A DNA stretch of 32,152 nucleotides from a virus, in the IMG/VR virus record IMGVR_UViG_3300025151_000169, positions 1-32,152 of that record; one strand, written 5' to 3'. The translations under genes were made by a program, and so were the position numbers. Below, piece by piece: positions 2,608 to 27,325 of this stretch. Position 1 is the stretch's first letter, and each line of letters begins with the position of its first letter. The notes under the pieces are model-generated. The model did not search any database. It was not told the DNA's origin and saw nothing but the letters and a program-made list of their open reading frames with translations.

Positions 2608-3546
2608 ATGCCTGAAGAAAATGCAGAAGTAACTGAAGAGCAACTGGTTCAAGCGGCATCGCAATATGATGCCGCCATCGAGGCCGGTGAAGAGCCTGAA
2701 GTCACCATCGAGGAGCAACCCGAAAGTGATGAAGGTGATGTAACCGAAATCAAAGAGCAGATGCAGGAAGAAGCCGAGCAGGAAGAACAGGCATCGGACG
2801 CTGAAGAACAGTCCAGTTCAGAAGAACCGGAACCGGAAGAGAAGGCAGAGGAGAAGCCGGTAAGCAAGTACGAGAAAAACCGCCGGAGGCAATCTGAAGC
2901 ATGGGAGAAAATAAACTCCCAGAAGGAAGAAGCCAAAAAGCGGGAAGCAGAGTTGGAGAAGCGCGAAAAGGAGTTGGAAGAACAACGCCAGAAAGTAGCT
3001 GCCAACAAAGGCTATCGTGATGAAGACGGGCATTCCGCTGATGACTTCGAGAAGGCGGCAAAAGAGTTCGACCAAGAAGGTGAATCCGACTTGGCGGCAG
3101 CGGCCAGGAAACGCGCGGAGGAATATCGCGGGCGAGAGAAAGAAGCCCAAGAGCAATCTTCCCGCGCTGAAGTCGAAGAGATTCGGAAGAACCAGCAAAA
3201 TGAATTGCGGGAAAAACATCCGGAACTCAACGACCCTAACTCGGAGTTGTTTAAGGAAGTCGCGTCTCTCATGGCTACCTATCCAGTGCTGCAATTTGAT
3301 CCATACGGATTGAAGGCGGCGGTGGATGTAGCCCAATTGCGCCAAAACTCAAAAGAAGCCGACTCCCTACGGGAACGGGTAGGTGAACTGGAGCAACTGG
3401 TTAACAAATACGAAAAGAAAACATCAGTGGGGGGAGGATTTACCACCGCCAAAGTTTCTGGAGACAAGAACTTTGACGATATGGACATCGGCGAGCAGGA
3501 CAATTATTTGCTCCAAGCTGCGATGGCCCATGACGATAACCTCTAG
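2608..3546 (+). CDS. Capsid scaffolding protein
   Basis: This 312-residue protein is the likely internal scaffold that directs procapsid assembly and is then removed. Residues 1-90 are extremely acidic (runs of Glu, Asp, Gln and Ser). Residues 85-215 are a long charged coiled coil (repeated KKREAELEKREKELEEQ-type heptads). A second coiled coil lies near residues 245-275, and the C-terminus after a Gly-rich hinge is short and polar. This composition and the position immediately before the major capsid gene are typical of podovirus scaffolds. A GGAG motif seven bases upstream of the ATG supports the start. Sequence of such proteins diverges quickly, so the call leans on composition and synteny. 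Confidence 0.85.
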   Translation: MPEENAEVTEEQLVQAASQYDAAIEAGEEPEVTIEEQPESDEGDVTEIKEQMQEEAEQEEQASDAEEQSSSEEPEPEEKAEEKPVSKYEKNRRRQSEAWEKINSQKEEAKKREAELEKREKELEEQRQKVAANKGYRDEDGHSADDFEKAAKEFDQEGESDLAAAARKRAEEYRGREKEAQEQSSRAEVEEIRKNQQNELREKHPELNDPNSELFKEVASLMATYPVLQFDPYGLKAAVDVAQLRQNSKEADSLRERVGELEQLVNKYEKKTSVGGGFTTAKVSGDKNFDDMDIGEQDNYLLQAAMAHDDNL

Positions 3547-3572
3547 CCCGCTACTAACACGAAGATAATACT

Positions 3573-4637
3573 ATGGCTACTAACACTAGTACCTCATTAT
3601 CCAACCAGTATCAGAATCATTTCAGCAAGAAATTGCTGTCCTATGCTGTTCAAGCACTGGTTTTGGATCAATTCGCAGAGAAGGTCGCCCTTCCTGCAAA
3701 GGCCGGAAACAAGGCAATCTCGATGTTCCGTTATGGCGCGCCGAGTACGTCTGGTATTGAAACCCTCTCAAACGAGGGAACCAAACCATCGGGAACCCGT
3801 TCCCTCTCGCTCGCCAAAATTGACAAGTCGCTCATTCAGCGCGGTCAGGTGATTGAGTTGACGGACATCCTGACTCAAACCGACCTGTTCAACAGCCTCC
3901 AGCAAAGCATCAGAACTCAAGGTGAAGATGCTGCTCTGGACTTGGACACGCTTACTCGCAATACGCTGGTGGGTTCCAATGTGGCTGGTGACGCTAAAGA
4001 AAACGGCGATGGTTCCGCTCTGGACAACAGCGACACTCTTACCGAGATGTACGCTGGTGGTTCCACGGACTACACCGACTTCTGCGCCACCACTTCCGGC
4101 AATACGCTGGCAGCGAGCGACATCCTTGATGCCGTGACCAAGCTGAAGATCAATCGCGCTACTCCTGCCAAAGGCGGAATGTATGTTGCGGTGGTCAGCC
4201 CGCAGGTCTTGAGCGATGTGATGAAGATCAATGAGTGGTTGAATGCCGCCCAATACAGCAATGTTTCCGAACTCTACAAGGGTGAGGTTGGTTCGTTGTT
4301 TGGTGCTAAATTCATCGAAACCACCAACCCGTTTGTTAGCGGAAACGCCAACACTGCGGATGATGATCGCTTCGATTATGACGCTTCTGCCGGTAACGGT
4401 GTTGCTGCTGACAAGAACGTGTACGCCACCCTGTTCCTCGGACAACAGGCATACGGTGTGCCGAACTTGGGCTCGCAGTCTCCGTTCAGCCCGAAGGTCA
4501 TCATTGCGGACGGGCCGGACAAGAGCGACCCGCTCGATCAGAAGATCACCGTATCGATCAAATGCTACTGGGGTGCGTTGCGACTCAACCCGAACTACTA
4601 CGCCATTATGCGCTCCAAGACCGCATACAGTGGCTAA
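3573..4637 (+). CDS. Major capsid protein, N4-gp56-like family
   Basis: This 354-residue protein is the predicted shell subunit with an HK97-type fold. The N-terminal region (YQNHFSKKLLSYAVQALVLDQFAEKV, shown here with residues 13-38 in mind), followed by IDKSLIQRGQVIELTDIL near residues 87-105, fits the N4-gp56 family of capsid proteins as I know it. A later stretch includes FIETTNPFV and the C-terminal WGALRLNPNYYAIMR. The length is in the usual range for the family. It directly follows the scaffold gene. The ribosome-binding site is weak (GAAGATAAT). A 301-residue antisense open frame covers most of the gene but is a codon-bias shadow. Confidence 0.92.
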   Translation: MATNTSTSLSNQYQNHFSKKLLSYAVQALVLDQFAEKVALPAKAGNKAISMFRYGAPSTSGIETLSNEGTKPSGTRSLSLAKIDKSLIQRGQVIELTDILTQTDLFNSLQQSIRTQGEDAALDLDTLTRNTLVGSNVAGDAKENGDGSALDNSDTLTEMYAGGSTDYTDFCATTSGNTLAASDILDAVTKLKINRATPAKGGMYVAVVSPQVLSDVMKINEWLNAAQYSNVSELYKGEVGSLFGAKFIETTNPFVSGNANTADDDRFDYDASAGNGVAADKNVYATLFLGQQAYGVPNLGSQSPFSPKVIIADGPDKSDPLDQKITVSIKCYWGALRLNPNYYAIMRSKTAYSG

Positions 4638-4651
4638 AAATAAAACAGACC

Positions 4652-5026
4652 ATGCATAAAGGTAAGAAACCAAAAGGCGTGGTTCTTATGATCGCCGTGG
4701 GGGGTGGGGCTGAAAAGCCCCGCCTCTCCGGCAACTCGGAAACCAGTAATAAAAAGACAATGATTAAAATTCCTTTGGGCGCATTATCCAACATGGATGA
4801 AGAGGGTGATGCTGCCATGCCCGAAAATGGCGATATGGTTCAAATGAACAACGTCGAGGGCGTTGTAAAAAACATTGATGGCGAAGAAGCCCATGTTGAG
4901 CTTCAGACCGTTGAAGGCCAACCCATCGAGTACGTTGATCACAAGAAAGAGGATTCGGAAGAAGAATCTGATGATGATCGCTTGATGAAGATGGCGGAAG
5001 AAGAGGACGAAAAAGCCGGTTACTAA
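4652..5026 (+). CDS. Small acidic protein after capsid gene
   Basis: This is a 124-residue protein of unknown function. The open frame extends upstream into the capsid gene, but the first ATG after the capsid stop (4652, giving MHKGKKPKGVVLMIAVGGG) is preferred because that basic, glycine-containing start resembles small phage proteins near capsid genes. The remainder carries a stretch with alternating hydrophobic residues (residues 65-95, likely beta structure). The tail is very acidic (residues 98-120, Glu/Asp rich). It may be a head decoration or completion protein, which is an inference from position only. It ends two bases before the next gene. Confidence 0.7.
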   Translation: MHKGKKPKGVVLMIAVGGGAEKPRLSGNSETSNKKTMIKIPLGALSNMDEEGDAAMPENGDMVQMNNVEGVVKNIDGEEAHVELQTVEGQPIEYVDHKKEDSEEESDDDRLMKMAEEEDEKAGY

Positions 5027-5292: not shown

Positions 5293-7347
5293 ATGGCAAC
5301 TTTATCGGGGCGGACTATTGCATCGAGCTACACTGAACTGCTCAAAACGACATCAAGTAGTGGCGTTACCTCGTCTCTGGACACGGTGCAGGACGGTGAC
5401 GCTACCGATTCCGCACTTCAAATTTCATCAGCGGCGGTCAAATCCACCGGCACGTTAACTTCCACCGGAAACTTTGACGTAGCCACGGATAAACTTACGG
5501 TCAACGCGACCAGCGGGAATACTGCCGTAGCCGGTACTCTGGATGTCACAGGCCAAATTACCGGCAATGTCACTGGCAATGTCACCGGAGACGTAAAAGC
5601 TACAGACGGCACTTCAGTACTTGATAGCGGCACGGACGGAACTGACGCAACTTTCACTGGTACAGCAACCAAGGCCGACCAACTTTCTACCGCCAGGAAT
5701 ATTGAGCTAACCGGAGATGTCACTGGCAATGTAAATTTCAATGGCACGGCGGATGTAGACATTGCGTCCACTTTGTCGAACACGGCAGTCACTGCTGGTA
5801 CATACGGTTCTGCTACTGCCTCTCCTCGCTTTACTGTTGATGCCAAGGGGCGCATTACCGGAGTTTCCGAGGTTACCATTACAGGTGGTGGCGGAGGTGG
5901 CGGAGGTGGGTCTGACGCGACATCGATTCAGGGTGTTGCTGTTAGTTCTACTGATCCCACTACTGACGGCGAGGCACTGGTTTACACTGGCTCGGAGTAT
6001 GAAGCTGTTGCAGTGGTCAAGGATGCCAATGCGGTTTCAACCAATACTGCCAGCAAAGTGGTCAAGCGCGATTCCTCTGGTAACTTTGCCGCTGGAACTA
6101 TCACTGCTGCTTTAACCGGAAATGCATCTACTGCAACTGCATGGGCAACGGGACGCGATGTTGCGCTTACGGGTGATGTCACTGGCACGGCAACTGGAGT
6201 GGATGGTTCGGGTAATGTATCAATCGCCTCCACCTTGGCAAACTCCGGTGTCACTGCTGCAACTTACGGTGATGCAAATACAGTGGCCCAAGTAGTGGTT
6301 GACGCTAAAGGTCGGGTCACTACAGCCACTGACGTAGATATTTCCATCACAGCATCGCAGGTAAGTGACGCTGGTACTGCCGCCACACTCAATGCCGCCG
6401 ATGCCAACTGGAATGCCAACAAGATACAAGGCAGGGATGTCGCAAGCTCGGCTCCGTCAGATGGTCAAACCCTTTCGTGGAACAATAGTGCAAGCCAGTG
6501 GGAACCGACCACGGGTAGTGCCACCAACGCCAACCAGTTGCAGGGTCGTGACATTCAGAATGTTGCTCCGAACGATGGTGAAAGTCTGATTTGGGATAAC
6601 GGCAATAGTCGCTGGTCACCTGCTGCAATTAACATCGTAACCGATACCACTCCCCAGTTAGGCGGAAACCTGGATGTCAACGGTCAGGACATCGTAAGCA
6701 CATCCAACGCTGACATTGAGATTGCTCCGGATGGCACAGGCGCAACGGTGTTCAAGGGTAACACGAATGCTGGTGCAATTAAGCTGAACTGCGAATCAAA
6801 CAGCCACGGGCAGACTATTATTGCTCAACCGCATTCTGCTGCTGTAACCAACACGCTCACTCTCCCTGCTGGTTCTGATCAAGAGATTGTCGGCACAACT
6901 GCCACCCAGACTCTCTCCAACAAAACTATAACGGGACTCGTCATAGGCACGGACGTTCAAGCCTACGATGCGGACACCACGAAGAATGATGTTAGCAACT
7001 CTTGGACTGCCGCCCAGCAAGGCAACACACAGACTGCTGCCTTCTCTGCATTAAGTTCTGGCGTACTGGACTTCGACACTTACCAGAATTTCGTAATCAC
7101 ATTAGGTGCTGGCGCAAATGGCTTTACCAACCCAACAACCGATGCGGGCAACACTGGGCAAACTGGAGTAATCGTATTGATTCAAGACAGTTCAGCGTCA
7201 ACAGCAACGTGGACTTCTGATTACAAGAATGTTGGGGGCAGCGCACCGACACTTTCGAGCGGATCAGCAAAAGTGGATGTGCTGCCGTACATTATTCAAG
7301 CCGACAACACGATCCTGCTCGGCGCACCGCAACTAGACTTTAGCTAA
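5293..7347 (+). CDS. Repeat-built tail fibre or appendage protein
   Basis: This 684-residue protein is a likely fibrous virion appendage used for host contact. The sequence is Thr, Ser, Gly, Asn and Asp rich with many short beta-forming repeats. A 60-residue module beginning LTGDVTG and ending VDAKGRITG occurs twice (about residues 137-196 and 290-350). I recognise this module from many phage fibres. A nine-glycine hinge (about residues 198-206) separates the halves. A TLSWNNSASQWEP-type module is repeated in tandem (about residues 385-445) with a looser copy near 215-235. Residues 570-684 form a distinct C-terminal domain ending in a beta-rich PYIIQADNTILLG. The start follows the previous stop with no gap and has a GGGGGA ribosome site. 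The stop overlaps the next ATG (TAATG). Confidence 0.82.
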   Translation: MATLSGRTIASSYTELLKTTSSSGVTSSLDTVQDGDATDSALQISSAAVKSTGTLTSTGNFDVATDKLTVNATSGNTAVAGTLDVTGQITGNVTGNVTGDVKATDGTSVLDSGTDGTDATFTGTATKADQLSTARNIELTGDVTGNVNFNGTADVDIASTLSNTAVTAGTYGSATASPRFTVDAKGRITGVSEVTITGGGGGGGGGSDATSIQGVAVSSTDPTTDGEALVYTGSEYEAVAVVKDANAVSTNTASKVVKRDSSGNFAAGTITAALTGNASTATAWATGRDVALTGDVTGTATGVDGSGNVSIASTLANSGVTAATYGDANTVAQVVVDAKGRVTTATDVDISITASQVSDAGTAATLNAADANWNANKIQGRDVASSAPSDGQTLSWNNSASQWEPTTGSATNANQLQGRDIQNVAPNDGESLIWDNGNSRWSPAAINIVTDTTPQLGGNLDVNGQDIVSTSNADIEIAPDGTGATVFKGNTNAGAIKLNCESNSHGQTIIAQPHSAAVTNTLTLPAGSDQEIVGTTATQTLSNKTITGLVIGTDVQAYDADTTKNDVSNSWTAAQQGNTQTAAFSALSSGVLDFDTYQNFVITLGAGANGFTNPTTDAGNTGQTGVIVLIQDSSASTATWTSDYKNVGGSAPTLSSGSAKVDVLPYIIQADNTILLGAPQLDFS

Positions 7348-10300
7348 TGGCAGACTTTGCATCAGCACTTTGGAATAAGCCAGCGGCGGCTGACTCAACC
7401 CCAGCCGACCCTGTGACACGTTCGCTGCGGTTTGATACAGCAAGCACACAGAAGTTAACCCGCACTTTTGGCACCCCTACTAGTCAAAAGAAAGTGACTA
7501 TATCGTGGTGGATGAAGCTGTCGGAGCAGGGAAATGGCAGCGCAAGTTACGGCGGGATTATCACTGTGGGGGATGACAGTTCAAACTACGCTGCAATAAA
7601 AGTAATGGGAGGCGCGACTAACACTATTACAGTAGATGAGGTATCTGGGGGTGCTTACAAAAGCGATAGGCAAACGTCTAGAGCATTCCGCGATATGGGG
7701 GCGTGGATGCATTGCGTTCATGTTATCGACACGACTGACTCAACAGCAGATGACCGTTCTAAATTATACATTAACGGGACTCGATACACAGGGCCATTTG
7801 CTACTTCTTATGCGACATATGACCAAGACTACGACACAAATTGGAGTAAGAGCGGTGAAGTAATTTCCATCGGGTTTGATAACTCTGGTGGTAGTCCGTA
7901 TTTCGGAGGCTACCTTGCAGACATCCATTACATAGATGGGCAAGCACTTGACGCCAGCGATTTTGCGGAAACAAATTCATCAACAGGGCAGTGGGTTCCG
8001 AAGGAGTATTCAGGGACTTACGGTAATAACGGATTCCACATTGATGCCCAGCCAGCCCACGATGCAGAACTCCTCGTATCCTCCATAGACCGCAACGATG
8101 GCGACACTGACTTTGCTGATGTGGCGGCGGGGCATACGATTACCACAGGCGGCGACCCAGAGCATAGCATCGCAGTTGGCAATCCGTTTACGGGTGATGG
8201 CAGAGCGATTTACTTTGATGGTACGGATGATTACCTGACTGTAGATGACGGAGCTAACATTGATTTAGGCACTGGCGATTTCACTATTGAGTTCTGGATG
8301 AACAGTGATGAGGACACTCAAAACGCTTATGTCACAGGTAGATGGAATGCCACACCAAACGGCGGAGCTTGGGACAGTAGAGAGTGGGGGTTAACCTGCA
8401 CAAGTTATGGTGGGGGTGAGTTGGACATTTATGTCCCGTATACTGGTGGGTATAACGCATCAAGCCTAAATGTCTGCGACAGCAAATGGCATCATATTGC
8501 TATTGTGAGGCATAGCGGAGATGCAAAGCTATATGTTGATGGAAAGTATCAGATAGATGCTTCTGTTTTAGACAGTTACAATATGAGTTTCTCGTCAAAG
8601 CTACTTATTGGCGGGGGGCAATCTTTATACTGGCGAGGGGCAATATATGACTACCGCATTAGCGACACTGCTAGGTACACCTCTGGCACTTCCGATTTTG
8701 ACGTGCCGACTGAAAAGTTTACCTCGGACAGCGACACTCTGCTGCTGATTCAGCCGGACAAAGATGACACCACATTCCACGATGAGTCCAGCAGTCCCGC
8801 AACTGTTACAACCGTAAGCTCACCCACCCGCACAGCCTCCACCCCCTACGATGCCGCAGCCAAATCAACTGCTATTTCCTTTGACGGAACAGGTGACTAT
8901 TTATCCGTAGCAACATCTAGTGACTTTGACTTTGGCTCCGGTAGTTACACCTACGAAGGTTGGTTTTATTTTAATGGGTTTAGCGAGACGCCCGAAGGGA
9001 TTTTCTCTAGGAACAACTCATCAACTCAAGAATGGGCGGTGTGTACTAATTCTAGCGGGACTCTTCAGTTCTTTGAATCCGTAAACAACTCATACAACAC
9101 CAGTTCATTTACGTTTAGCACGGGGCAGTGGTATCACATTGCACTATGTAAAAACGGAACAACCTACAAGGTGTATGTGGATGCAGACGAAAAGATTAGC
9201 GCAACACTTTCTTCCGCACCAGACGCTAACCTTCCTGTAATTATTGGCAGGTTTTACGACAACTACGATGGGTATTATTTAGATGGCTACTGTTACGATT
9301 TCCGCGCACAAAAGGGAGTAGACACTGGCGGGTCTAAACCATCAGCCCCGCTAGAGCTAAACCCCGTCTACATCGGCGGCGACCAGAGCGGTAACAAAAA
9401 TCATTTTACGCCGACGAATATCAGCAGCCACGATGTCATGCTGGATGTGCCGACGAAGAATTACGCGACTTGGAATCCACTAGACCTTCAAGAAACGGCT
9501 TCTACTGCGCCGACTTTTGCTGAAGGGAATTTAAGTTTATCAACTAACTCTAGCGGCTATGGCAGAATCCATTCTACATTCTCAATTCCTAGCACTGGTA
9601 AGTGGTATGCTGAATTTTATTCAACTAGCTTTAACGCTATTGGCGTTCGCAGAAAAGTAGGAGGAGGTTGGCCTTCTGGGTCTTCCGACTTGGCGTCTGT
9701 TGTCTCCAGCGGTTCCATTACTAATGCTTCAGGCGCTTCGCAGTCTGGACTAGCCTCTTGGTCATCTGGAGACATCCTGGGGGTAGAGGTTAATTGTGAT
9801 GACAACACAATCCAGTTTTTAAAGAATGGTTCTAACTACGGCACATCCGAAAGTTTCACTCATTATGCAGGTGAGACATTTTTCACCTACACAGACGGCT
9901 CTTCAGGCACAGCCTACAACGCAATAGCCAACTTCGGGGCCGACCCAACTTTTGCTGGCAATTATGCAGGGACACCTGAAAGTTCAGAATGGGCGTATAG
10001 TCCGTCCACCGACTTCAAAAGCCTGAACTCCTCCAATCTCGATGCCCCATCCGTTACGCCGTCAGAGAATTTCAACACGGTACTTTACACAGGCACACGG
10101 GATAACAGCAACTCCCTCGGAGCCACATCCAACGCCGTTACCGGAATGGGATTTGAACCCAGCCTCCTTTGGATCAAGGACAGGGATAACCAGTCCTCTA
10201 ATTACGGCAGTAGCTACTCCGGACACTACTTATTCGATTCAGTTCAAGGGGCGGGCAAGGCCATTAACATTGATGGTGGTATGTACACTGGATCAAATGA

Positions 10301-11192
10301 TTTTGTCAGCAATCTCGATGGCTACAACGGAGTGTCCTCTTTTGATTCTGATGGCTTCACACTAGATGAGGCTGAAGCGGTTAACTACGCTGTCGATTCG
10401 GACTATAACGGATCAATAGACACTTACGAACGCTATGCAGCTTGGGGCTGGAAGTTAGGCAGCAACGGCAGTTCGTCAACGTGGGCCGCCGGAAACACTG
10501 ATCCTACGACGGAGAAGTACAACGCTTCGGCGGGGGTGTCAGTCATTCGGCAAGAGGAAAGCAGCGGTAGCTATCCGATGACGGGCGTTACTGTTAACCA
10601 CAGCCTTGGCGAAGCACCAGAGTTTGCGTTCCTAATGGACAACTCAAGCAACACGCAGGAAGTCTTTGCGTGGCACAAAGATTTAGACGCCAACAAGTAT
10701 CTCAAATTAACCCAGAACTCCGCCCAAACAACAGGAAGCGGGTACTTCCCATCTGGGTGCAGCACGGCAACCACATTTCAGATCGGTTCAGATATTGCGG
10801 GAGCAAGCGGGTATGATGGGTGGTGGGACATCTATCTGTATTTATTTTCTGGCGTCGAGGGCTATTCAAAGTTCGGCAAATACACGGGCAACGCCAGTGC
10901 GGATGGGCCATTTATCTACACTGGATTCCGGCCAGCTTTCGTTCTTTGGAAACGCGCAACAGGGTCATCTAACTCGTGGAACATAATGGATAACAAGCGC
11001 GAAGGATATAACCCACAGAATGATTTGTTATTTCCCGACAGCTCCACAATCGAATCCAACGTAACCGACCAAGACCTGCTTTCAAATGGGTTTAAGCTGC
11101 GGACATCTGGAGCGGGTAGAAATGCGAATAACGAGACGTTCATCTATGCAGCTTGGGCGGAGGTTCCGTTCAGCAAGGGAAATGCTCGCTAA
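7347..11192 (+). CDS. Large LamG/SPRY-type modular tail protein
   Basis: This 1281-residue protein is probably a glycan-binding or receptor-binding tail component. Successive beta-sandwich modules can be seen. A concanavalin/LamG-type domain lies at about residues 25-235 (starts RSLRFDTASTQKL). A second is at about 285-440 (AIYFDGTDDYLTV to LLIGGG), and a third at about 508-655 (AISFDGTGDYLSV). A linker with DVPTKNYATWNPL near 700 is followed by a SPRY-like domain at about 735-868 (GKWYAEFYS, then GVEVNCDDNTIQFLKNG). The C-terminal 370 residues hold two related modules that contain PSLLWIKDRD and PAFVLWKRATG. The gene is coupled to the fibre gene by TAATG. It has no catalytic signature, so binding rather than cleavage of polysaccharide is the simpler reading. 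Confidence 0.8.
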   Translation: MADFASALWNKPAAADSTPADPVTRSLRFDTASTQKLTRTFGTPTSQKKVTISWWMKLSEQGNGSASYGGIITVGDDSSNYAAIKVMGGATNTITVDEVSGGAYKSDRQTSRAFRDMGAWMHCVHVIDTTDSTADDRSKLYINGTRYTGPFATSYATYDQDYDTNWSKSGEVISIGFDNSGGSPYFGGYLADIHYIDGQALDASDFAETNSSTGQWVPKEYSGTYGNNGFHIDAQPAHDAELLVSSIDRNDGDTDFADVAAGHTITTGGDPEHSIAVGNPFTGDGRAIYFDGTDDYLTVDDGANIDLGTGDFTIEFWMNSDEDTQNAYVTGRWNATPNGGAWDSREWGLTCTSYGGGELDIYVPYTGGYNASSLNVCDSKWHHIAIVRHSGDAKLYVDGKYQIDASVLDSYNMSFSSKLLIGGGQSLYWRGAIYDYRISDTARYTSGTSDFDVPTEKFTSDSDTLLLIQPDKDDTTFHDESSSPATVTTVSSPTRTASTPYDAAAKSTAISFDGTGDYLSVATSSDFDFGSGSYTYEGWFYFNGFSETPEGIFSRNNSSTQEWAVCTNSSGTLQFFESVNNSYNTSSFTFSTGQWYHIALCKNGTTYKVYVDADEKISATLSSAPDANLPVIIGRFYDNYDGYYLDGYCYDFRAQKGVDTGGSKPSAPLELNPVYIGGDQSGNKNHFTPTNISSHDVMLDVPTKNYATWNPLDLQETASTAPTFAEGNLSLSTNSSGYGRIHSTFSIPSTGKWYAEFYSTSFNAIGVRRKVGGGWPSGSSDLASVVSSGSITNASGASQSGLASWSSGDILGVEVNCDDNTIQFLKNGSNYGTSESFTHYAGETFFTYTDGSSGTAYNAIANFGADPTFAGNYAGTPESSEWAYSPSTDFKSLNSSNLDAPSVTPSENFNTVLYTGTRDNSNSLGATSNAVTGMGFEPSLLWIKDRDNQSSNYGSSYSGHYLFDSVQGAGKAINIDGGMYTGSNDFVSNLDGYNGVSSFDSDGFTLDEAEAVNYAVDSDYNGSIDTYERYAAWGWKLGSNGSSSTWAAGNTDPTTEKYNASAGVSVIRQEESSGSYPMTGVTVNHSLGEAPEFAFLMDNSSNTQEVFAWHKDLDANKYLKLTQNSAQTTGSGYFPSGCSTATTFQIGSDIAGASGYDGWWDIYLYLFSGVEGYSKFGKYTGNASADGPFIYTGFRPAFVLWKRATGSSNSWNIMDNKREGYNPQNDLLFPDSSTIESNVTDQDLLSNGFKLRTSGAGRNANNETFIYAAWAEVPFSKGNAR

Positions 11193-12343: not shown

Positions 12344-12410
12344 AGCACTCATAATAGATTTAGGTCGGTATATAAACGAACTGGAGCGTCGAATAGAAGG
12401 CAAACGATGA
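12201..12410 (+). CDS. Lipoprotein, probable Rz1-like outer spanin
   Basis: This is a 69-residue lipoprotein precursor. Its signal sequence is MRRMIKFTILLMLLASAGC with a clear lipobox (LASAGC), so cleavage before Cys19 and lipid attachment to the outer membrane are expected. The mature part is about 50 residues with an acidic, helical profile. The gene lies mostly within the +1 frame of the preceding gene, the classic arrangement of an outer spanin nested in its partner. An alternative ATG at 12210 would also give a functional signal. The stop overlaps the next gene start in ATGA. The lipobox is direct sequence evidence; the spanin role comes from context. Confidence 0.75.
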   Translation: MRRMIKFTILLMLLASAGCISEKLNGFQEIAERHPLGMEQITEHPESEALIIDLGRYINELERRIEGKR

Positions 12411-13144
12411 CATTAAGCGAACTGGCAGATCAGATTACGACGAAATTGAGCGACACCGATAGCGCATCGGTTGTGACTTGCAAAAAGTTTATCAATAACC
12501 GCTACCGCATGGTTTGGGAGTCGCAACTTTGGACTCAAACCTTGGGCGTGGTCAGCGCGTCTGTTAGTGCGAATGACGAAACGGTCACCTTGTCTGGCGA
12601 CCCAACAATATTCTATTACCCGACATCCACCACCACGGCATCCACCGCGCCTCGGTTGGATTTCGTTGTGGCGGCAAAGTTTACTGAAACCGGCAAGGAT
12701 GAAGGCCATGAAATAAGCGGCCAGAATTGGATACAGTTCTTCCAGCTTGACCCTAATATTTGGAACAACACGGCAGATCGCCGCACCACTCCGGTTAACT
12801 TTACCCCGCTTCCCAAAGACGCCAGCGGCAACTGCCGGATCAAGCCCATACCCACTCCCAACGCCGCCGGAACGGTTTACGCGCTGGGCAAGCTGAAGAA
12901 CACTGACCTTGGCGACTCCGACTCTCCGGTGATTCCAGGTGTTGACAATGTTCTGCTGGCATATGCTGAAGGGGATATGCTTGAGCGTTCGATGCAGTAC
13001 AGCAAGGCGCAGCTAAAATTTACCGAGGCGACAACACTTTTGCAGATTAGCCGCGAACTGGACAACGTCCAACAGAACAAGGTTTCAGTTATTGTGCCGG
13101 ATGTGCCGTCACACTGGAGCCGAAACGATTTCATCATTAACTGA
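12407..13144 (+). CDS. Head-tail adaptor-like protein
   Basis: This is a 245-residue protein. The helical N-terminus (residues 1-40, including KKFINNRYRMVWESQLW), the beta-rich middle and the long helical C-terminal third (about 190-230) fit the adaptor proteins that bind beneath the portal in podoviruses. Near residue 25 the FINNRYRMVWES stretch resembles an adaptor N-terminal signature (INxxYxxI/VxxxxxW). It starts within the ATGA overlap with the lipoprotein and its stop overlaps the next start by one base. In many podoviruses this gene precedes the nozzle gene, as it does here. The identity is moderately supported and not certain. Confidence 0.6.
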   Translation: MTLSELADQITTKLSDTDSASVVTCKKFINNRYRMVWESQLWTQTLGVVSASVSANDETVTLSGDPTIFYYPTSTTTASTAPRLDFVVAAKFTETGKDEGHEISGQNWIQFFQLDPNIWNNTADRRTTPVNFTPLPKDASGNCRIKPIPTPNAAGTVYALGKLKNTDLGDSDSPVIPGVDNVLLAYAEGDMLERSMQYSKAQLKFTEATTLLQISRELDNVQQNKVSVIVPDVPSHWSRNDFIIN

Positions 13145-14965: not shown

Positions 14966-15385
14966 GTGGATGGGACTAGTGCCAGAGATTTTGGAGTTGG
15001 TGATGTCATCGATTTTATACGAGGAAATGACCGAAGGGGAACTTGTTTCGGAAGATGGCCAAACAATATCCTTTCACCTTTCATCAGCTTCTCCGCCGAC
15101 ATTGGAAGTCTGCACCTCGTCCAAGAAGATGGCGAGTTGGTCGCAGTCGGTTTTGCGAGACAGATCGATGAAGACGATTTGGATCGGCATTGGCTACCCC
15201 AAAAAAGGGAAGGCACTGCTATCGAGTTCCAAGACGTATTATCAAAAAACAAGCAAGGGCTGGAAACTCTCATCGATGAATTTACATCGAGGCATCCCGA
15301 TTGGCGTGAAAAAAAACTGTTCGCCACTCGACATGGTCAAAGGAAGAGGATTCAACCCGAACTAATCGAAAGGCTCATGGCTTGA
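14966..15385 (+). CDS. Hypothetical protein, possibly GNAT-like, GTG start
   Basis: This is a 139-residue protein. I chose GTG 14966 because GGAGAG lies eight bases upstream and it avoids a long overlap with the previous gene. A beta-strand-like stretch (residues 48-64, GSLHLVQEDGELVAVGFA) and a helical end (LETLIDEFTSRHPDW, then KKLFATRHGQRK) resemble small acetyltransferase-like virion proteins in tail regions, but no acetyl-CoA binding motif is clear. It could therefore be a divergent GNAT or an unrelated small virion protein. The terminal TGA overlaps the next gene, which starts with TTG inside the same TTGA. A second long frame at 14970-15365 was judged a shadow. Confidence 0.55.
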   Translation: MDGTSARDFGVGDVIDFIRGNDRRGTCFGRWPNNILSPFISFSADIGSLHLVQEDGELVAVGFARQIDEDDLDRHWLPQKREGTAIEFQDVLSKNKQGLETLIDEFTSRHPDWREKKLFATRHGQRKRIQPELIERLMA

Positions 15386-15675
15386 ATTTAGAAGGCCCAG
15401 TTGTCAGAGGTGAAGGCTTTGCAGAGAAAGTCCCAACTGCTAATATAGCACTCGATAAGCCTGTCGAGGTGGGGTGCTATCGTGGGATTGCATATGCAGG
15501 GGCAGACAAGCTGGGGGATGCTGCGGTGTGGGTCATGCCACATCAACCATTCATTGCCGAGGCATATATTTCGGGATACGAGGGCGACCTCTACGACACC
15601 TACCTTACAATTCAAAATATGAATAAACTAAATCGGGAAGATTTAAAGGGACTATACGACAAGGCACTGGCATGA
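15382..15675 (+). CDS. Riboflavin-kinase-like domain protein
   Basis: This is a 97-residue protein whose sequence follows the flavokinase (riboflavin kinase) domain. GPVVRGEGFAEKVPTANIAL near residues 5-24 carries the PTAN nucleotide-binding motif. VEVGCYRGIAYAG is next. HQPFIAEAY contains Glu60, where the catalytic glutamate is expected, and EGDLYDTYLTI matches the DLYG strand. The true enzymes have a domain of about 125 residues, so this version is shortened, and the usual C-terminal helix is brief. Flavokinase phosphorylates riboflavin to FMN; whether the phage version does so is unknown. It starts at TTG with GAAAGG eight bases upstream and is translationally coupled on both sides. Its neighbours are virion genes, not metabolic genes. 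Confidence 0.6.
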   Translation: MNLEGPVVRGEGFAEKVPTANIALDKPVEVGCYRGIAYAGADKLGDAAVWVMPHQPFIAEAYISGYEGDLYDTYLTIQNMNKLNREDLKGLYDKALA

Positions 15676-16913
15676 ACGACTTGATTCAAAGATGCGAGCA
15701 ATTGGCGCGGCAGATTGTCGAAGCCAAGGGACAACAGTTTTGGGCAGCGCGCGGAGCGTTGAACAAGGGAACCCCACCACCGGCCCCAACTCCTCCCAGC
15801 TACGGGGAGGGCGTCGAGACGGCAGCGCAATGGTCACCCATTATTGCTGGAGTAGAGTCGGCCCGTAGATTAGGTAAAGAATTTACATACGAGCATCCTG
15901 ACACTGGCGAGATAAAGACGGTTGATTTCACCAACCTTGGCGATGTCGAGATGGCGAAAGTCATGCAGGACTTTCAGAATCAGTCTGCATCCGAAAACGC
16001 CAGAGTCTTACTAGACCTTTATAAAGAGTATGGCCCGCAGTTTGTTGAGTCTTCCCGCGACCAACTGCGACAAGCTGATCCAAAAGGCTTTGAGGCGCGA
16101 GAGACACTCGGCGACAAGGTTCTGGCGGACATGGACAACATCCCATCCGTACCGGATGCTCCGGAGCTTGAGTCCCTAGACCAGGATACAGTACTTCAAG
16201 CTGATCCGGAAACGCTTGCTGCTCGTAAAGATGCCGAACGTAGCTTGGTGGAGCGATTGCAGTCCGGTGAGTTTAGTCAACGCGCCGCCAAGCGGGCAGG
16301 GGACATCGCTAAAGGGCGTCAGGCCGCTTCTGGCAACATCTTTGGAGGCGGGGCAGTGTTACAGCAGTCCATCGCCGAAACGGGCGCAGAGGACGCTGCC
16401 AGCCGCCAAGCGGTTGCGGACTATCTTGGGTTCCTGCAATCCGGCCAATCGGCAGAGGACTATAGCTCGCGCCTCGCAATGGCTAACCAGCAAAACCAAT
16501 TGACCGGCCAAGCGAGCCGGAATCAAGCATCACAGCAAAGTTACGCCAATGCGATGAATCGCTTGAGCGGTCAGGAGACGATGAATCAGCAACGCATGGG
16601 CAACCTGCAAGCATTTGCCTTCGGCCAACCGCTGGTTAATCAGCTTGGATCACTGGGCGGAATGCAGCAGCAAGCGGCTCCGTATGCTCCGACTCAAGTT
16701 GCCGGATACGGTCAGTCTATCGGGCAGCAAATGGGCAATGTTCAAAGTCTTAACCAATCAAACTACCAAGGGGCGATGCAAGCGTGGCAGACACAAGCGC
16801 AAGCCGCCATGCAACCCAGCGGGTTTGGTTCAGTACTCGGCACTGCATTTGGCGCATTGTCAGGTGGAGTAGGGGAAGGGTTAGGTGCTGGTTTAGCTAA
16901 AAAATGGGGTTGA
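15672..16913 (+). CDS. Internal virion or ejection-type protein, Gln/Ala rich
   Basis: This is a 413-residue protein. The first 30 residues are helical, and a short proline-rich linker follows (PPPAPTPPS). Coiled-coil helices run to about residue 240, with an Ala/Gly/Gln-rich central and C-terminal part (repeated SQQ, NQQ and QQQ-type groups). The C-terminus (residues 383-413) is a Gly-rich hydrophobic patch (GSVLGTAFGALSGG and onward) that could insert in a membrane. Such composition and the position between tail proteins and larger virion proteins fit a DNA-ejection protein. It is coupled to the flavokinase-like gene by ATGA. The family cannot be named with certainty. Confidence 0.65.
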   Translation: MNDLIQRCEQLARQIVEAKGQQFWAARGALNKGTPPPAPTPPSYGEGVETAAQWSPIIAGVESARRLGKEFTYEHPDTGEIKTVDFTNLGDVEMAKVMQDFQNQSASENARVLLDLYKEYGPQFVESSRDQLRQADPKGFEARETLGDKVLADMDNIPSVPDAPELESLDQDTVLQADPETLAARKDAERSLVERLQSGEFSQRAAKRAGDIAKGRQAASGNIFGGGAVLQQSIAETGAEDAASRQAVADYLGFLQSGQSAEDYSSRLAMANQQNQLTGQASRNQASQQSYANAMNRLSGQETMNQQRMGNLQAFAFGQPLVNQLGSLGGMQQQAAPYAPTQVAGYGQSIGQQMGNVQSLNQSNYQGAMQAWQTQAQAAMQPSGFGSVLGTAFGALSGGVGEGLGAGLAKKWG

Positions 16914-16930
16914 TAAATTAAAGGATAATC

Positions 16931-18949
16931 ATGGCAAACTTCTGGGCAGGATTTGGGCAGGGATTCCAAGGCGGATTCCAATCGGCATACAACAGGGCGG
17001 CTAAACGGCGCGACATTAAAGAAGCGCGTGAGCAAGCGCGCGCTGATCAGCGTGAAGTAATGGAGGCTGAAGCTGGAGCGTATGATGACATAAACAAGGG
17101 ACTACGCGAAAAGTTGGCGGAACTAAAACGCCAACAGGAAATAGATTCCATAACAGACCCCAATGACCCACGGTTGTCAGTTTTAAACAACCAAGTGCCA
17201 ATGCCCACCCTCGAAGAAGGTGAGCCGCCCGAATTGTCCATGAAGGATTTGATTCAAAAAAGAATCACTGGAAAGTCTACGCAAGCCTCTTTGTCTGGAA
17301 GAATCGCGGAATTAAAGAAATTACAAGCTGCCCAAAAACTGCGAGAGCAACAACGGGCCGATATAAAAGATCAAAGAGATTACGAAAGCGGGGTGCGACA
17401 GGAAGGATACGCTAGAGAAGATAAAAAATCTGCTGACGCACTCGAATTAAAAAGACAAGAAAAGGTAAATGATTATCTCTTTAAACTCGCAGAAGTAACT
17501 GGAGAAACACCAGAAGGCCCACCTTTAGACGCACTAGAGGCAGCGGCTTGGTTCGGGCGCGCGAAGAATGATCAAAACGAAGCCACCAAGAAAAGGGAGC
17601 AACTAGTAAATTTTGCACCCAATGTTTTAAAACAGTTTGAAGATGCTGGCGCGGCTGGTCAACCAATGCCCGAACTTGATTATAGGTATGAAGATATAAT
17701 TCCGGCAGGGTTAACTGAACAAGCATACAATTCAGCTAGGACGCTGGCAAAAAGTACGGATAGGAAGACCAAATTAGCAGACGCTAAAAAATTAGCTGAT
17801 GCAGAGGTTCAAAGTGCTGGAGATTTAGTCCAATTTGGACTGAAGCCACCCACTGCCGACAACTTCCTGTCCCCGAATGGAATGACAGCGTATTACGCCG
17901 CAAAAGCGTTGGCGTCTAAAAAGAAAGAAGCCTATGAGGCAGTGCAATCGGTGGAGGGGCAAAAAGGATCAATGGGCTTGCCCAAACTTTCCTTGAGTCA
18001 GATCAACAATACTTCCTTTGAGGATTTAGACCACATCATAAACGGTCATAAAACTTTAGCCGGACAGCAAGAGGCGGCTAAAGAATTAGGCCAGAAGGCC
18101 AAGGAAAAGATGCTGCCCAGTTTTCAGCCAGAACCACAAGAAGGCACAACTGCTCAAAGGTTTTTGATGAGTCAGGTGAAAATTCTAAATGACCCCACCG
18201 CCTCTGCTGAAGATAAAAAGTTGGCCGAACAAATGATAGAGTTGCAGGGCGGAACAGCCACTACAGTCTATGGTGAAGACGGAAAACCAATCGTACAGAT
18301 CGGAAGGCCCACAAGCCGCAGCAAGGAAGACAAACCTGAACCTGCTGCCTTGGAGACTGCATTAATGGACTTGAACAGGTTGGCACGGGATTACGATGAT
18401 AAAAAACCCAGCATAGGATGGATAGCCACAGTTAAAAGCGGGATAGGAGATAGTTTCTTGCCTCAATTTGGTATCAACAGCATGAGTGATCCCCAGCGCG
18501 TAAAATACAGGCAAGCAGTTCAGGAGTTTCAAGTAAACTACGTCAAGGCACTTAATGCTCCAGACAGTCGCCTTTCCGACACTGACAGAAAGATGCTTGC
18601 CCCGCTTGCGCCAGGAGTTAACGACTCTCCGGTTATGTTCGCTAATAAAGTTGAAGCGATTCAAGAAAAGATATCCAGACATCAAAGGTTGAATGATGCT
18701 TTTCAGGGCAAAAAAGACCTATGGGGTATGAGAGCTTCTGAAATCACAAGCGCAACATTTGGGCCTAACGCAAGGCTAACACCCGAACTTGGGGCTTTTG
18801 CTATCCAAGAAAAATTTGGAGCTAAAGAACTCTATTCCGATGATCAGTTAAGGGAAGTAATACGCACTCAATTCAGTGGAAAATCTGAAGAGGAAGTTAG
18901 ATTTTTTGTAAGATCACTACTTTCAATTGGAAGACTTGGGGATAAATAA
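16931..18949 (+). CDS. Large internal virion-type protein
   Basis: This is a 672-residue protein. The N-terminus is glycine and phenylalanine rich (FWAGFGQGFQGGFQSAYN), which is typical of proteins in this position that may insert in membranes. It is followed by long charged helices (about residues 25-300) with Gln/Lys/Glu-rich coiled coils. The remainder is a mix of helical and globular segments without a known catalytic motif. Its place between a smaller ejection-like protein and a 1020-residue protein matches the internal core genes of podoviruses. The start has an AAAGGAT ribosome site. The function is inferred from size, composition and order. Confidence 0.65.
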   Translation: MANFWAGFGQGFQGGFQSAYNRAAKRRDIKEAREQARADQREVMEAEAGAYDDINKGLREKLAELKRQQEIDSITDPNDPRLSVLNNQVPMPTLEEGEPPELSMKDLIQKRITGKSTQASLSGRIAELKKLQAAQKLREQQRADIKDQRDYESGVRQEGYAREDKKSADALELKRQEKVNDYLFKLAEVTGETPEGPPLDALEAAAWFGRAKNDQNEATKKREQLVNFAPNVLKQFEDAGAAGQPMPELDYRYEDIIPAGLTEQAYNSARTLAKSTDRKTKLADAKKLADAEVQSAGDLVQFGLKPPTADNFLSPNGMTAYYAAKALASKKKEAYEAVQSVEGQKGSMGLPKLSLSQINNTSFEDLDHIINGHKTLAGQQEAAKELGQKAKEKMLPSFQPEPQEGTTAQRFLMSQVKILNDPTASAEDKKLAEQMIELQGGTATTVYGEDGKPIVQIGRPTSRSKEDKPEPAALETALMDLNRLARDYDDKKPSIGWIATVKSGIGDSFLPQFGINSMSDPQRVKYRQAVQEFQVNYVKALNAPDSRLSDTDRKMLAPLAPGVNDSPVMFANKVEAIQEKISRHQRLNDAFQGKKDLWGMRASEITSATFGPNARLTPELGAFAIQEKFGAKELYSDDQLREVIRTQFSGKSEEEVRFFVRSLLSIGRLGDK

Positions 18950-18951
18950 CA

Positions 18952-21900
18952 ATGAGCGAGAAAAAATTAAAATCCTTAACCGCTGAAGACGTTGATAACA
19001 TTATCAACCAAGTTCGCTCGGAGCAGGATGTCGAGATTGGGGTGACGGGGCCGGAGTTTGCTCCGTCAATTGGGGGCCAAGAACCAGACCCAAGATATCC
19101 GGAGTCAGGGGCCACTGTGGCAGAGATGCGTGATTTAGAACGGAAATACGGCACTTCTGGTGTTGATATTGATCCAAGAGGTCTTCCTGTCGGCTATCGC
19201 GCCCTTTCAGGGTTAGCTCAAACTGGTCAGGATAAAAGGGCGATTTACAGCAAAGTTTTCGGCGAAGAAAATGTCCGCCCGATTGAAGGCACTGATAAAT
19301 TCCTAATTAGAGTCTACAGAGATGGGAAACCTGTTGATGTAGTGGATGACGAGTCGGCGTTTTCCATGAGAGACTTGGCCGACCTTACCGGAATGGTTCC
19401 AGAACTCGCAACAAGCATAGCGACAACAGTCAAAATGCTTCCCAAAAATCCGGCAGGTCTTGCGGCAACCGCAGGTACAGCCGCTGCGGCGTCTGCTGCC
19501 GGTCAGGCAGTTGGGGGGGTGAAAGATTTAGGATTAAGGATTTTAACTGGCGAAGATTTAGATGCTGGTGAAATAGTAAAGAGAAGATTACCTGCCGCAG
19601 CAATAGAAACCGGATTTGGCACGGCATTGCCATATGCTTCCCAAAAGGTCTTCAGCAAGCTCCGGCCTTCGTCGGTTTCATCCGGAGCGCAACCTGTTGA
19701 CAGGGCAATTGCAAAAGAGGGGAGCGAGGCAGCAAAAAAACTTGAGGCGGAAGGCATTCCCGCTCCCCTTACTGCGGGCGAGGCAACAGGTAGTAGAGGT
19801 GTTCAGGAGTACGAGGCATTGGCCGAGAAGCTCGCAAGAATCACTGACCCCACTGGGGAAATCCGTCTAGCGCAGCAGGAGGCGATCAAAAAGGGCCAAT
19901 CCAGTTTGCCTGAAATGAAAGGCGATATAGATAGAAAAATTGGAGATAAGATTTCGGCGCGCCTTAAAGCCCAGGAAACGAATTTAAGCGATGCCGCAGC
20001 GCAATCAGCACAAGAGGCTGTAAGAAGGGCCGAAGCAAATGTTGGATTGGATTTAAGCCAATCTGTCGTGGATGCGGGCAACAAGGTTCGATCCGGACTA
20101 CAAAAAGGCGTACAAGCTAAACAAGCTGAAGTTGATGAGTTGTATGAAACAGCTAACAGGATGCGGGTGGAGGCTGGTGGCGGCGAGGCATTCATCATGC
20201 CGAATCGAACCAGCAAACTGGGCAAGGAAATCATTGAAAAAGAAACCTTAATTCAGGAGACAACTGAATCTTTAGAAGTACCCACTGGCGTGCTGTCTGA
20301 AAGCGGCGAGCAGATTACCGAGGAGGTTCTTAAAACAAGCAAGCAACCCATCGGGTGGGCAGTTCCCGCATACAAAGAGGCGCAGTCTTTCGCTCAATTA
20401 GGTGACACTCCTCAAACTATTGAGGCAATGCGAGAAGCGCGCGCGGTGTTTGGTGAAGCAATAGGTCGCGCGCAATCGGCTGGTCTTGATTCTCTGGGTG
20501 GCGGGTTTTCCTTGGGGCAAGCGAAGAGGTTTTACAAGGCGTTGAGTCAGGACATCGATGACTCGCTCAAGGCACTAGACCCAGATGCCGCCGCCGCTTT
20601 CCAGAAAGCTCAATCCGAATCAAAATCATTATTTGATACATACACATCCAGTAAGACCATGAACGGGTTCAGGTTGTCTGAAGCCGAGGGTGGACTTGCT
20701 GAAGTCAGCGACATTGTCCGCCACTTCAGCCAAAGCAAAGGCAAACCTGGAATGCTATCAAGCATGAAGAAGATTTTGTCTCCTGAAGATTACAGTGTAC
20801 TCAAGAAAGGCATTTTGGCCGACCTTGGTGACGGGGCGAGTTACAGGTTCGCAAACGGCGTTAGCGGGGTGGACTTCAGTATTTTGCAAAAACGACTATC
20901 TCAAATTCACCCTGAAATGAGGGATGAGCTTGTAGGAGGAAAAGATGCTTACATCCGTATACAACAAGCATTGAATGACTTCACGACAGCGCAGGGCGTT
21001 GCCGGATCGAAGAGTCCATTGCAATTCCCCGCACAGGTGACTGCTGATGAGTTGGACAGATTGCTGGCAAAAGCCGGTGACCCCAATATGTTCCAATCGG
21101 TCAAAGAGTCGATTGAGGCATCTATCACGCTGAAGCGAAGGCAATTGGCGGAATACGGCAATGAGGTTACTGCTGCTGTACGGCAAAACAATTTACCTTC
21201 CGGCAAGATAAATGCTGATGATTTTATAGACGGTTTTATCCTTAAACAGACAGACGCTAAACTTGTTAGACAAGCGTTAGACAAACTAACAGAAGAGCAA
21301 GAGCAAGAGGTGGCAAAACAACTTGTCAGGCGAATCTTTGATAAATCACGCGACTTGGCAAAGGAACCCCTTGACGCACTTAAAAAAGGTGATGAGGGAG
21401 TTATTACTGGCAGACAATTGAAAGAAATATTGTTTGGCGGACAGGGTCAGCGACGAATCATTCAAGAGGTTTTGCCTAAAGAGACGCTGGAGAAAATGGA
21501 GAATCTTTTGGCGTACCAGATGGCAATCGAAAATGCCCGCAGTCAGGCTGGTGGATTTGCGAGGGACTATGCAATCGGCAATATGTCCAAAGAGACGATA
21601 GGCAAAATCACAATGGCTAGGCTTGTCTTTTCAGATGCTATGCAATCTTTCCTCAAAAAGGCAGCGGCATCACCCAGTGCGTTATCTAAATTTTCTGCAC
21701 TTGCAGGGAAGGGGATGGATAGATTGCCTAGTAAGATTGGCCCCACTAGGGTGATAGTTTCATCGTATCTGGGTAAGGAGGTCGCTGACCTCGCCATGCA
21801 GTGGGGTGAAGCGACCAGAGGTCTTGACGAGCAGGAAATTGCAGCGTTAAGACAATCATACCTATCAATACCTCAACAAAGAGAAGTCTCTGAAGAAGAC

Positions 21901-22014
21901 TTAAAAAGTGAGATGGACAGAATATTTGGCGGCGGCAACAAACAAGGTAAAACCGAAGCAGAGAAAAGGCGAGACGCCAGAATCAAAGCTAGGATGCCAA
22001 TTAAGTCGCGCTAA
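18952..22014 (+). CDS. Largest internal virion or ejection-type protein
   Basis: This 1020-residue protein is the largest of the late module. A hydrophobic, alanine and glycine rich stretch at about residues 165-190 (NPAGLAATAGTAAAASAAG) could span or disturb a membrane. The rest is mainly alpha-helical with many coiled coils, including RAEANVGLDLSQSVVDAG near residue 360. The tail is basic. No peptidoglycan-hydrolase motif stands out, unlike some homologous core proteins. It is the last gene of the rightward structural run and converges with the leftward ribbon-helix-helix gene, their stop codons sharing bases at 22011-22014. Confidence 0.6.
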   Translation: MSEKKLKSLTAEDVDNIINQVRSEQDVEIGVTGPEFAPSIGGQEPDPRYPESGATVAEMRDLERKYGTSGVDIDPRGLPVGYRALSGLAQTGQDKRAIYSKVFGEENVRPIEGTDKFLIRVYRDGKPVDVVDDESAFSMRDLADLTGMVPELATSIATTVKMLPKNPAGLAATAGTAAAASAAGQAVGGVKDLGLRILTGEDLDAGEIVKRRLPAAAIETGFGTALPYASQKVFSKLRPSSVSSGAQPVDRAIAKEGSEAAKKLEAEGIPAPLTAGEATGSRGVQEYEALAEKLARITDPTGEIRLAQQEAIKKGQSSLPEMKGDIDRKIGDKISARLKAQETNLSDAAAQSAQEAVRRAEANVGLDLSQSVVDAGNKVRSGLQKGVQAKQAEVDELYETANRMRVEAGGGEAFIMPNRTSKLGKEIIEKETLIQETTESLEVPTGVLSESGEQITEEVLKTSKQPIGWAVPAYKEAQSFAQLGDTPQTIEAMREARAVFGEAIGRAQSAGLDSLGGGFSLGQAKRFYKALSQDIDDSLKALDPDAAAAFQKAQSESKSLFDTYTSSKTMNGFRLSEAEGGLAEVSDIVRHFSQSKGKPGMLSSMKKILSPEDYSVLKKGILADLGDGASYRFANGVSGVDFSILQKRLSQIHPEMRDELVGGKDAYIRIQQALNDFTTAQGVAGSKSPLQFPAQVTADELDRLLAKAGDPNMFQSVKESIEASITLKRRQLAEYGNEVTAAVRQNNLPSGKINADDFIDGFILKQTDAKLVRQALDKLTEEQEQEVAKQLVRRIFDKSRDLAKEPLDALKKGDEGVITGRQLKEILFGGQGQRRIIQEVLPKETLEKMENLLAYQMAIENARSQAGGFARDYAIGNMSKETIGKITMARLVFSDAMQSFLKKAAASPSALSKFSALAGKGMDRLPSKIGPTRVIVSSYLGKEVADLAMQWGEATRGLDEQEIAALRQSYLSIPQQREVSEEDLKSEMDRIFGGGNKQGKTEAEKRRDARIKARMPIKSR

Positions 22015-26614: not shown

Positions 26615-27325
26615 ATGAATGAAAAACGAACGCACATCGACCTGTTCTCCGGCATCGGAGCATGGAGCATCGCTGCCGAGCGAACCGGCAACTTTCAAAC
26701 AGTTGGATTTGCTGAATGTGCCGAGTACCCCAGTGCCGTCCTCAAGCGACACTGGCCCCATGTCCCAAACTTTGGGGATATCCGAAAAGTCACTTTTAAG
26801 AAAACAGGCATCTGCGATTTGCTCACCGCCTCGCCCCCTTGCCAACCTTACTCCAGAGCTAATAACAACCGAGGCGACGAATCAGATGACCGTATCCTCT
26901 GGCGAGAGTTGTTTAACATTGTTGAAGACCTCCGGCCCACTTGGCTCATTGGTGAGGAGGTTAGTGAGTTCGCGAAGTTTCACCTCGACGATTTTTTCGA
27001 TGCGCTGGAGTCCGCAGGGTACACCACGGGGGCGGTTGTACTTCCAGCTTGTGCCTACGGAGGTTGCCCCCATCGAAGGGACAGACTCTGGTTCATGGCC
27101 CACACCGACCAGCCGCGATTGGAAGGACACCGGAAGTTTAGAAAACGTACCCGAAAAGGGACTGCTTGGGAGAGTGTTCCAGAACATCTTTGGGATGAAA
27201 CTCCCTCCAGAGTTCTCCGAATGGTTAATGGGTTTGCCTCTTGGCCATACCGTAGTGAACGGATTCAAGCCATTGGAAACTCAATCTCCGCGCCACTCGC
27301 GCACCAAATCTTAAAACTCTTATGA
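26615..27325 (+). CDS. C5-cytosine DNA methyltransferase
   Basis: This 236-residue protein is a C5-methyltransferase. Motif I DLFSGIG (residues 9-15) binds S-adenosylmethionine. Motif IV SPPCQPYS contains catalytic Cys76. The motif VI position is GEEVSEF (the usual ENV replaced by EEV). Motif VIII is HRRDRLWF, and motif X is QAIGNSISAPLAHQIL. It is shorter than most family members, with a small target-recognition region. The recognition site cannot be read. It may protect phage DNA from host restriction. The ATG has no clear Shine-Dalgarno. A second long frame in the same DNA starts four bases later. The stop overlaps the next gene by ATGA. Confidence 0.88.
   Translation: MNEKRTHIDLFSGIGAWSIAAERTGNFQTVGFAECAEYPSAVLKRHWPHVPNFGDIRKVTFKKTGICDLLTASPPCQPYSRANNNRGDESDDRILWRELFNIVEDLRPTWLIGEEVSEFAKFHLDDFFDALESAGYTTGAVVLPACAYGGCPHRRDRLWFMAHTDQPRLEGHRKFRKRTRKGTAWESVPEHLWDETPSRVLRMVNGFASWPYRSERIQAIGNSISAPLAHQILKLL
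26619..27314 (+). CDS. Overlapping-frame protein inside methyltransferase gene
   Basis: This 231-residue open frame lies inside the methyltransferase gene, one base ahead in phase, starting only four bases after the enzyme ATG. It carries SMRWSPQGTPRGRLYFQLVP (about residues 127-146), SGSWPTPTSRDWKDTG (about 157-172, W160), and EFSEWLMGLPLG (about 200-211). These blocks match, from memory, a recurring protein sequence of phages found near or over C5-methyltransferase genes. If that is right, both frames are under selection. The first 100 residues are less ordered. The function is unknown. An alternative is that both frames are read as a fused or shifted product. Confidence 0.5.
   Translation: MKNERTSTCSPASEHGASLPSEPATFKQLDLLNVPSTPVPSSSDTGPMSQTLGISEKSLLRKQASAICSPPRPLANLTPELITTEATNQMTVSSGESCLTLLKTSGPLGSLVRRLVSSRSFTSTIFSMRWSPQGTPRGRLYFQLVPTEVAPIEGTDSGSWPTPTSRDWKDTGSLENVPEKGLLGRVFQNIFGMKLPPEFSEWLMGLPLGHTVVNGFKPLETQSPRHSRTKS

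Follow-up and report, generated by a model that had tools for sequence, protein, structure and literature searches.

Riboflavin kinase (RFK), which makes the cofactor FMN, is among the housekeeping enzymes essential to cells. In bacteria it occurs as the RFK domain of RibF/FAD synthetases, such as T. maritima TM379 (PDB 1mrz) and C. ammoniagenes CaFADS (5a88-5a8a), and in eukaryotes as a monofunctional enzyme (S. pombe, 1n06). In CaFADS, the loops L1c-FlapI, L4c-FlapII and L6c, together with helix alpha1c, form a closed flavin site (PMC5428420). The RFK fold is also encoded by viruses, as in the giant-virus riboflavin kinases of Fadolivirus (A0A7D3R2S5, 121 aa) and Indivirus.

We analyzed an RFK-like cistron in a 32,152-nucleotide stretch of viral DNA (the window). 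The encoded domain and its viral relatives have the fold, PTAN loop, catalytic Glu, DLYG strand and C-terminal helix in common with cellular RFKs. They differ from these in length (97-115 aa versus about 120-160) and in having FlapI, FlapII and L6c shortened or absent, and, unlike cellular RFK/FAD synthetase, they have no FMNAT module and are encoded in a phage virion operon. The giant-virus enzymes, at about 20% identity, differ as well and belong to eukaryotic dsDNA viruses.

For the genomic context, the closest described arrangement is that of T7 genes 11-16, which the window matches in block order and approximate gene sizes; the likeness of the neighbors to T7 rests on this order and size. 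T7 has no RFK-like gene between genes 13 and 14, whereas in the window the RFK-like cistron is found at that point. While RFKs in cells and giant viruses are already known, the new element is a trimmed phage RFK clade that is fixed in a virion operon and that was not found in PHROGs, cultured phage records or the literature searched. It represents a stripped-down, strictly conserved relative of an essential cell enzyme, locked into the virion operon of an uncultured phage group.

Homology to riboflavin kinases and the predicted active site

Homology of the viral domain to riboflavin kinases is established by sequence profiles, predicted fold and active-site conservation. The window protein scored 27.7 bits (E 3.4e-6) against the Pfam family PF01687 (Flavokinase), above the cut-off of 19.6. 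The same family was matched by all 17 aligned viral relatives (with E 1 as the reporting limit; lowest value 7.2e-8) and by four more divergent members (22.8-31.9 bits). In a search of all PDB sequences, phmmer with the single 97-aa sequence gave no match, but a profile built from eight viral members had T. maritima RibF as its sole match (E 2.6e-4), in the riboflavin-kinase domain. When the viral family was aligned to six cellular RFKs with hhalign (E about 1e-11, 97%), PTAN was paired with PTAN, Glu with Glu and DLYG with DLYG.

The structural comparison gave the same picture. AlphaFold2, run on the viral alignment, predicted a six-strand barrel with a C-terminal helix (pLDDT 92.9). The first 24 Foldseek matches of this model in the PDB were all riboflavin kinases (probability 1.00, TM 0.50-0.68 by query), and no non-RFK structure in the PDB had comparable support. 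In the viral structure library BFVD, the best named matches were giant-virus riboflavin kinases.

Residues of the active site are conserved throughout the family. Among 35 distinct viral sequences (one contig-end fragment left out), the invariant residues are G, V, G, K, T, A, N, G, G, P, E, L, Y, Y and A, which include T, A and N of the PTAN motif, E60, and L and Y of the DLYG strand. E60 aligns with the Glu of the E. coli, human, S. pombe, T. brucei, C. ammoniagenes and T. maritima RFKs. The window protein reads DLYD where nearly all relatives have [D/N/S]LYG.

The Pro of PTAN is replaced by Ser in only one lineage, L130/L131 (around 4396-4734), which has STAN together with a one-residue insertion and keeps the Glu and DLYG. 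It represents a natural variant that may be useful for probing the need for Pro.

The original prediction, made from the letters alone, had recognized an RFK-like domain by its PTAN motif, a Glu at the catalytic position and a DLYD strand. The domain is confirmed by the Pfam score above the cut-off and by the AlphaFold2 and Foldseek results, and all three motifs are present (P18-T19-A20-N21, E60 and D69-L70-Y71). Two findings that could have spoken against the assignment were looked for, a different predicted fold and loss of motif residues in close homologues; the predicted fold is that of a riboflavin kinase, and the motif residues are kept in close as well as distant homologues.

The loops around the flavin site are not conserved in the same way. 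FlapI, the loop before PTAN, is about 3 residues shorter than in cellular RFKs according to both alignment and model, and FlapII, from the NP motif to the Glu, is about 6-7 residues shorter. The L6c loop with its LR-x4-F segment is absent, and strand 74-83 of the model runs directly into helix 85-96. As judged from alignment and model, the viral domain has a shortened flavin lid but still possesses the residues of the Mg-nucleotide and base site. The complete FlapI, FlapII and L6c loops of a canonical riboflavin kinase (EC 2.7.1.26) are thus lacking, and mainly because of this reduced lid next to a preserved Mg-nucleotide and base site we do not class the protein as a working riboflavin kinase.

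The cistron and its genomic neighbors

The open reading frame had been predicted correctly with respect to length and coordinates, and its setting in a virion operon, between a tail-region protein and an ejection-type protein, proved to be real and conserved across loci. The features are collected in Table 1.

Table 1. Features of the RFK-like cistron and surrounding genes (window coordinates)
Feature	Position	Strand	Remarks
245-aa protein, T7 gene 11 position	12407..13144	+	synteny in relatives; without family match
Tail/stabilisation (head-closure-like) protein, 605 aa	13144..14961	+	tblastn 'phage stabilization protein'/'head closure'; PHROG structural matches
GNAT-fold protein, 139 aa, T7 gene 13 position	14966..15385	+	GTG start inferred from homologues
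AAGG, Shine-Dalgarno-like (inferred)	15370..15373	+	8 nt 5' of TTG start; read from sequence
RFK-like (flavokinase-fold) cistron	15382..15675	+	97 aa, TTG start, TGA stop
PTAN motif (residues 18-21)	15433..15444	+	Mg/ATP loop of riboflavin kinases
Glu60 codon	15559..15561	+	aligns with RFK catalytic base (E268 of CaFADS)
Asp-Leu-Tyr of DLYG strand (residues 69-71)	15586..15594	+	
Ejection-type protein, 413 aa, T7 gene 14 position	15672..16913	+	synteny; role by position (inferred)
Putative internal virion protein, 672 aa, T7 gene 15 position	16931..18949	+	synteny; role by position; no family match
Putative internal virion/ejection protein, 1020 aa, T7 gene 16 position	18952..22014	+	synteny; role by position; no family match

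The upstream gene ends in a TGA that overlaps the TTG start (...ATGGCTTGA), and the ATG of the next gene overlaps the TGA stop (GGCATGA). AAGG motifs can be read 7-8 nt ahead of both starts. The overlaps suggest that the RFK-like cistron is translationally coupled to its neighbors. The start codon is supported by the homologues, as the nearest divergent relative (L112) has GTG at the homologous codon, likewise overlapping an upstream TGA, and other relatives have ATG at or near this position.

We also considered a frameshift fusion with the upstream GNAT gene, as the RFK frame could be entered by a -1 slip on an A-run at 15309-15316. We prefer a separate cistron, because homologues carry proper start codons where the two genes overlap and because in L015, a locus without the RFK-like gene, the GNAT gene also terminates normally.

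The 139-aa protein encoded immediately upstream was modeled by AlphaFold2 with a pLDDT of 88.1, and Foldseek matched it to GNAT-fold acyltransferases. Its homologues begin at the equivalent codon. It lies at the position of T7 gp13 (138 aa, PF11090), which is listed in Pfam as a probable scaffold protein. In a marine phage, a GNAT encoded beside internal virion proteins was taken as the counterpart of T7 gp13 and associated with morphogenesis (PMC6775973). Sequence homology to gp13 is unsupported in our case: there was no sequence similarity (hhalign probability 0.1%), and PF11090 was not found in a Pfam scan of relatives of the GNAT-fold protein. The equivalence with gp13 is therefore one of position and fold type only. 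By eye, the alignment of the GNAT-fold protein is without a clear canonical Q/R-x-x-G-x-G/A acetyl-CoA loop, and the protein may be a non-catalytic GNAT fold.

Distribution and inheritance of the gene

IMG/VR was searched for relatives by back-translated pattern and by profiles of both the RFK family and the upstream GNAT gene. The family was found on about 50 other IMG/VR contigs, with identities down to about 35%. Four different queries against 50,697 phage records gave no relative, and neither did searches of plasmids and PHROGs. Two pattern scans of GTDB genomes were also without a match, which gives no indication of a prophage or cellular source as far as close relatives are concerned, since such scans need near-identical short stretches. 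The lossy first look of the genome search missed the RFK-like gene of record G077, in which a local profile detected it (as L138), so absences from that search carry little weight. Literature searches found no report of the gene; in two virome papers, riboflavin kinase appears only as an entry in lists of annotated functions.

Gene order around the RFK-like gene is fixed: tail/stabilisation protein, GNAT-fold protein, RFK-like protein and ejection-type protein. A stabilisation homologue was found upstream in all 53 loci (corresponding to about 50 contigs, as some loci are overlapping views of one contig), and the stabilisation proteins of the examined loci are down to about 34% identical to that of the window. 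A homologue of the 413-aa ejection-type protein was seen in 51 of the 53 (50 by BLAST, plus L119), and the remaining two contigs end at this point.

In L119, the GNAT-type and 413-aa-type genes lie in one open frame (3070-4683) that spans the RFK gene in another frame. This single frame is due either to loss of a stop codon, to gene fusion or to an error in sequencing.

Several observations bear on how long the gene has been part of the operon. Across 32 loci, identities of the RFK-like proteins were correlated with those of the GNAT-fold proteins (r = 0.83, Mantel p 0.0005), which indicates that the pair has long been inherited together. Among close relatives, dN/dS was about 0.1-0.3, indicative of purifying selection. 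From the correlation and the low dN/dS, we conclude that the RFK-like gene has long belonged to the late operon. A recent moron is ruled out by the same correlation and by the fixed position.

The gene is not present in all related phages. It is missing in seven contigs that share the GNAT-type gene and have a readable slot (L015, L127, L163, L164, L165, L168 and L170), and also where an unrelated gene fills the GNAT slot (L012-L014, L016 and L018). As some related phages are without it, the gene is accessory and non-essential for the virions of the group.

In L127, an unrelated ORF of about 150 aa (3105-3560) occupies the RFK-like slot, suggesting that this is an exchangeable accessory slot.

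Possible function, and other genes of the window

We tentatively favor, with confidence a little below even, a phage-specific, minimised protein of the flavokinase fold that would bind nucleotide, would probably transfer phosphate and would serve virion building or the ejected proteins. Late expression, virion association and the ligand are presumed here; the reading builds on the invariant Mg-nucleotide and base site, the reduced flavin lid and the fixed, coupled place in the virion operon. The protein would be made late, in step with its coupled neighbors, would bind Mg-nucleotide in the PTAN loop and would still transfer phosphoryl groups to a small alcohol, either a flavin or some other ligand. 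Its role would lie in virion assembly or with the ejected proteins, and not in general FMN supply. T7 gp13, in the neighboring slot, is thought to serve morphogenesis and provides an analogy. Gene neighborhood by itself is no proof of a virion role.

A rather doubtful reading, which we nevertheless consider, goes further and takes the protein to be a flavokinase recruited into the internal-virion/ejection module of a podovirus-like clade. It would then be virion-associated or ejected, Mg-nucleotide-dependent and changed in substrate, and it would act beside the GNAT-fold protein. If this were true, a second enzyme fold would have been exapted in this part of the operon.

Alternatively, the protein could be a compact but active ATP:riboflavin 5'-phosphotransferase, the product of an auxiliary metabolic gene that would raise FMN late in infection and that came to lie in the virion operon by happenstance. 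The Pfam match, the fold and the retained catalytic residues would all fit, as would purifying selection and the riboflavin kinases of giant viruses found in BFVD, and the Glu base has no obvious purpose in the absence of catalysis. However, the loops that bury the flavin (for their role, see PMC5428420) are trimmed, and one would not usually expect a metabolic gene to hold the same coupled position among virion genes in every locus. A gene for the flavoenzyme ThyX was also not found in 15 related records, a weak argument in view of fragmentary records and a lossy search. We regard this alternative as unlikely. From the trimmed loops and the fixed late-operon position, plain FMN supply appears less likely than the original prediction implied.

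A catalytically dead RFK fold, used solely in the structure or assembly of the tail or internal core, much as seems to be the case for the GNAT fold at the gene 13 position, is quite unlikely in our view. The operon position, co-inheritance with the GNAT-fold gene and trimmed substrate loops agree with such a role, as does the listing of T7 gp13 as a probable scaffold, but a dead fold would have no need of T, N and E, which stay unchanged in relatives as distant as about 35% identity even as most of the remaining positions vary. Finally, a short ORF with a TTG start might have suggested that the resemblance is due to chance or that a host ribF has left a pseudogene remnant. This is extremely improbable: the length and the overlaps at start and stop are conserved and selection is purifying, and the 35 distinct sequences and the predicted RFK fold likewise contradict it.

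Either these phages would make use of flavin chemistry as infection ends or within the particle, or a metabolic fold would have been turned into an assembly part.

Two other regions of the window also deserve mention. Positions 7347-11192 encode a large tail/virion protein of 1281 aa, in which several lectin domains (laminin-G/concanavalin-like) are combined with a DUF7483 C-terminus. Further downstream, two near-coextensive ORFs of 236 and 231 aa (26615-27325 and 26619-27314, plus strand) lie in different frames. One of them is a C5 cytosine methylase (PF00145, E 1.3e-30; phrog_363, E 3.3e-54), and the other matches phrog_1008 (E 4.7e-18), phrog_26627 and Lacticaseibacillus phage proteins (E about 1e-7). 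The two are possibly an overprinted gene pair.
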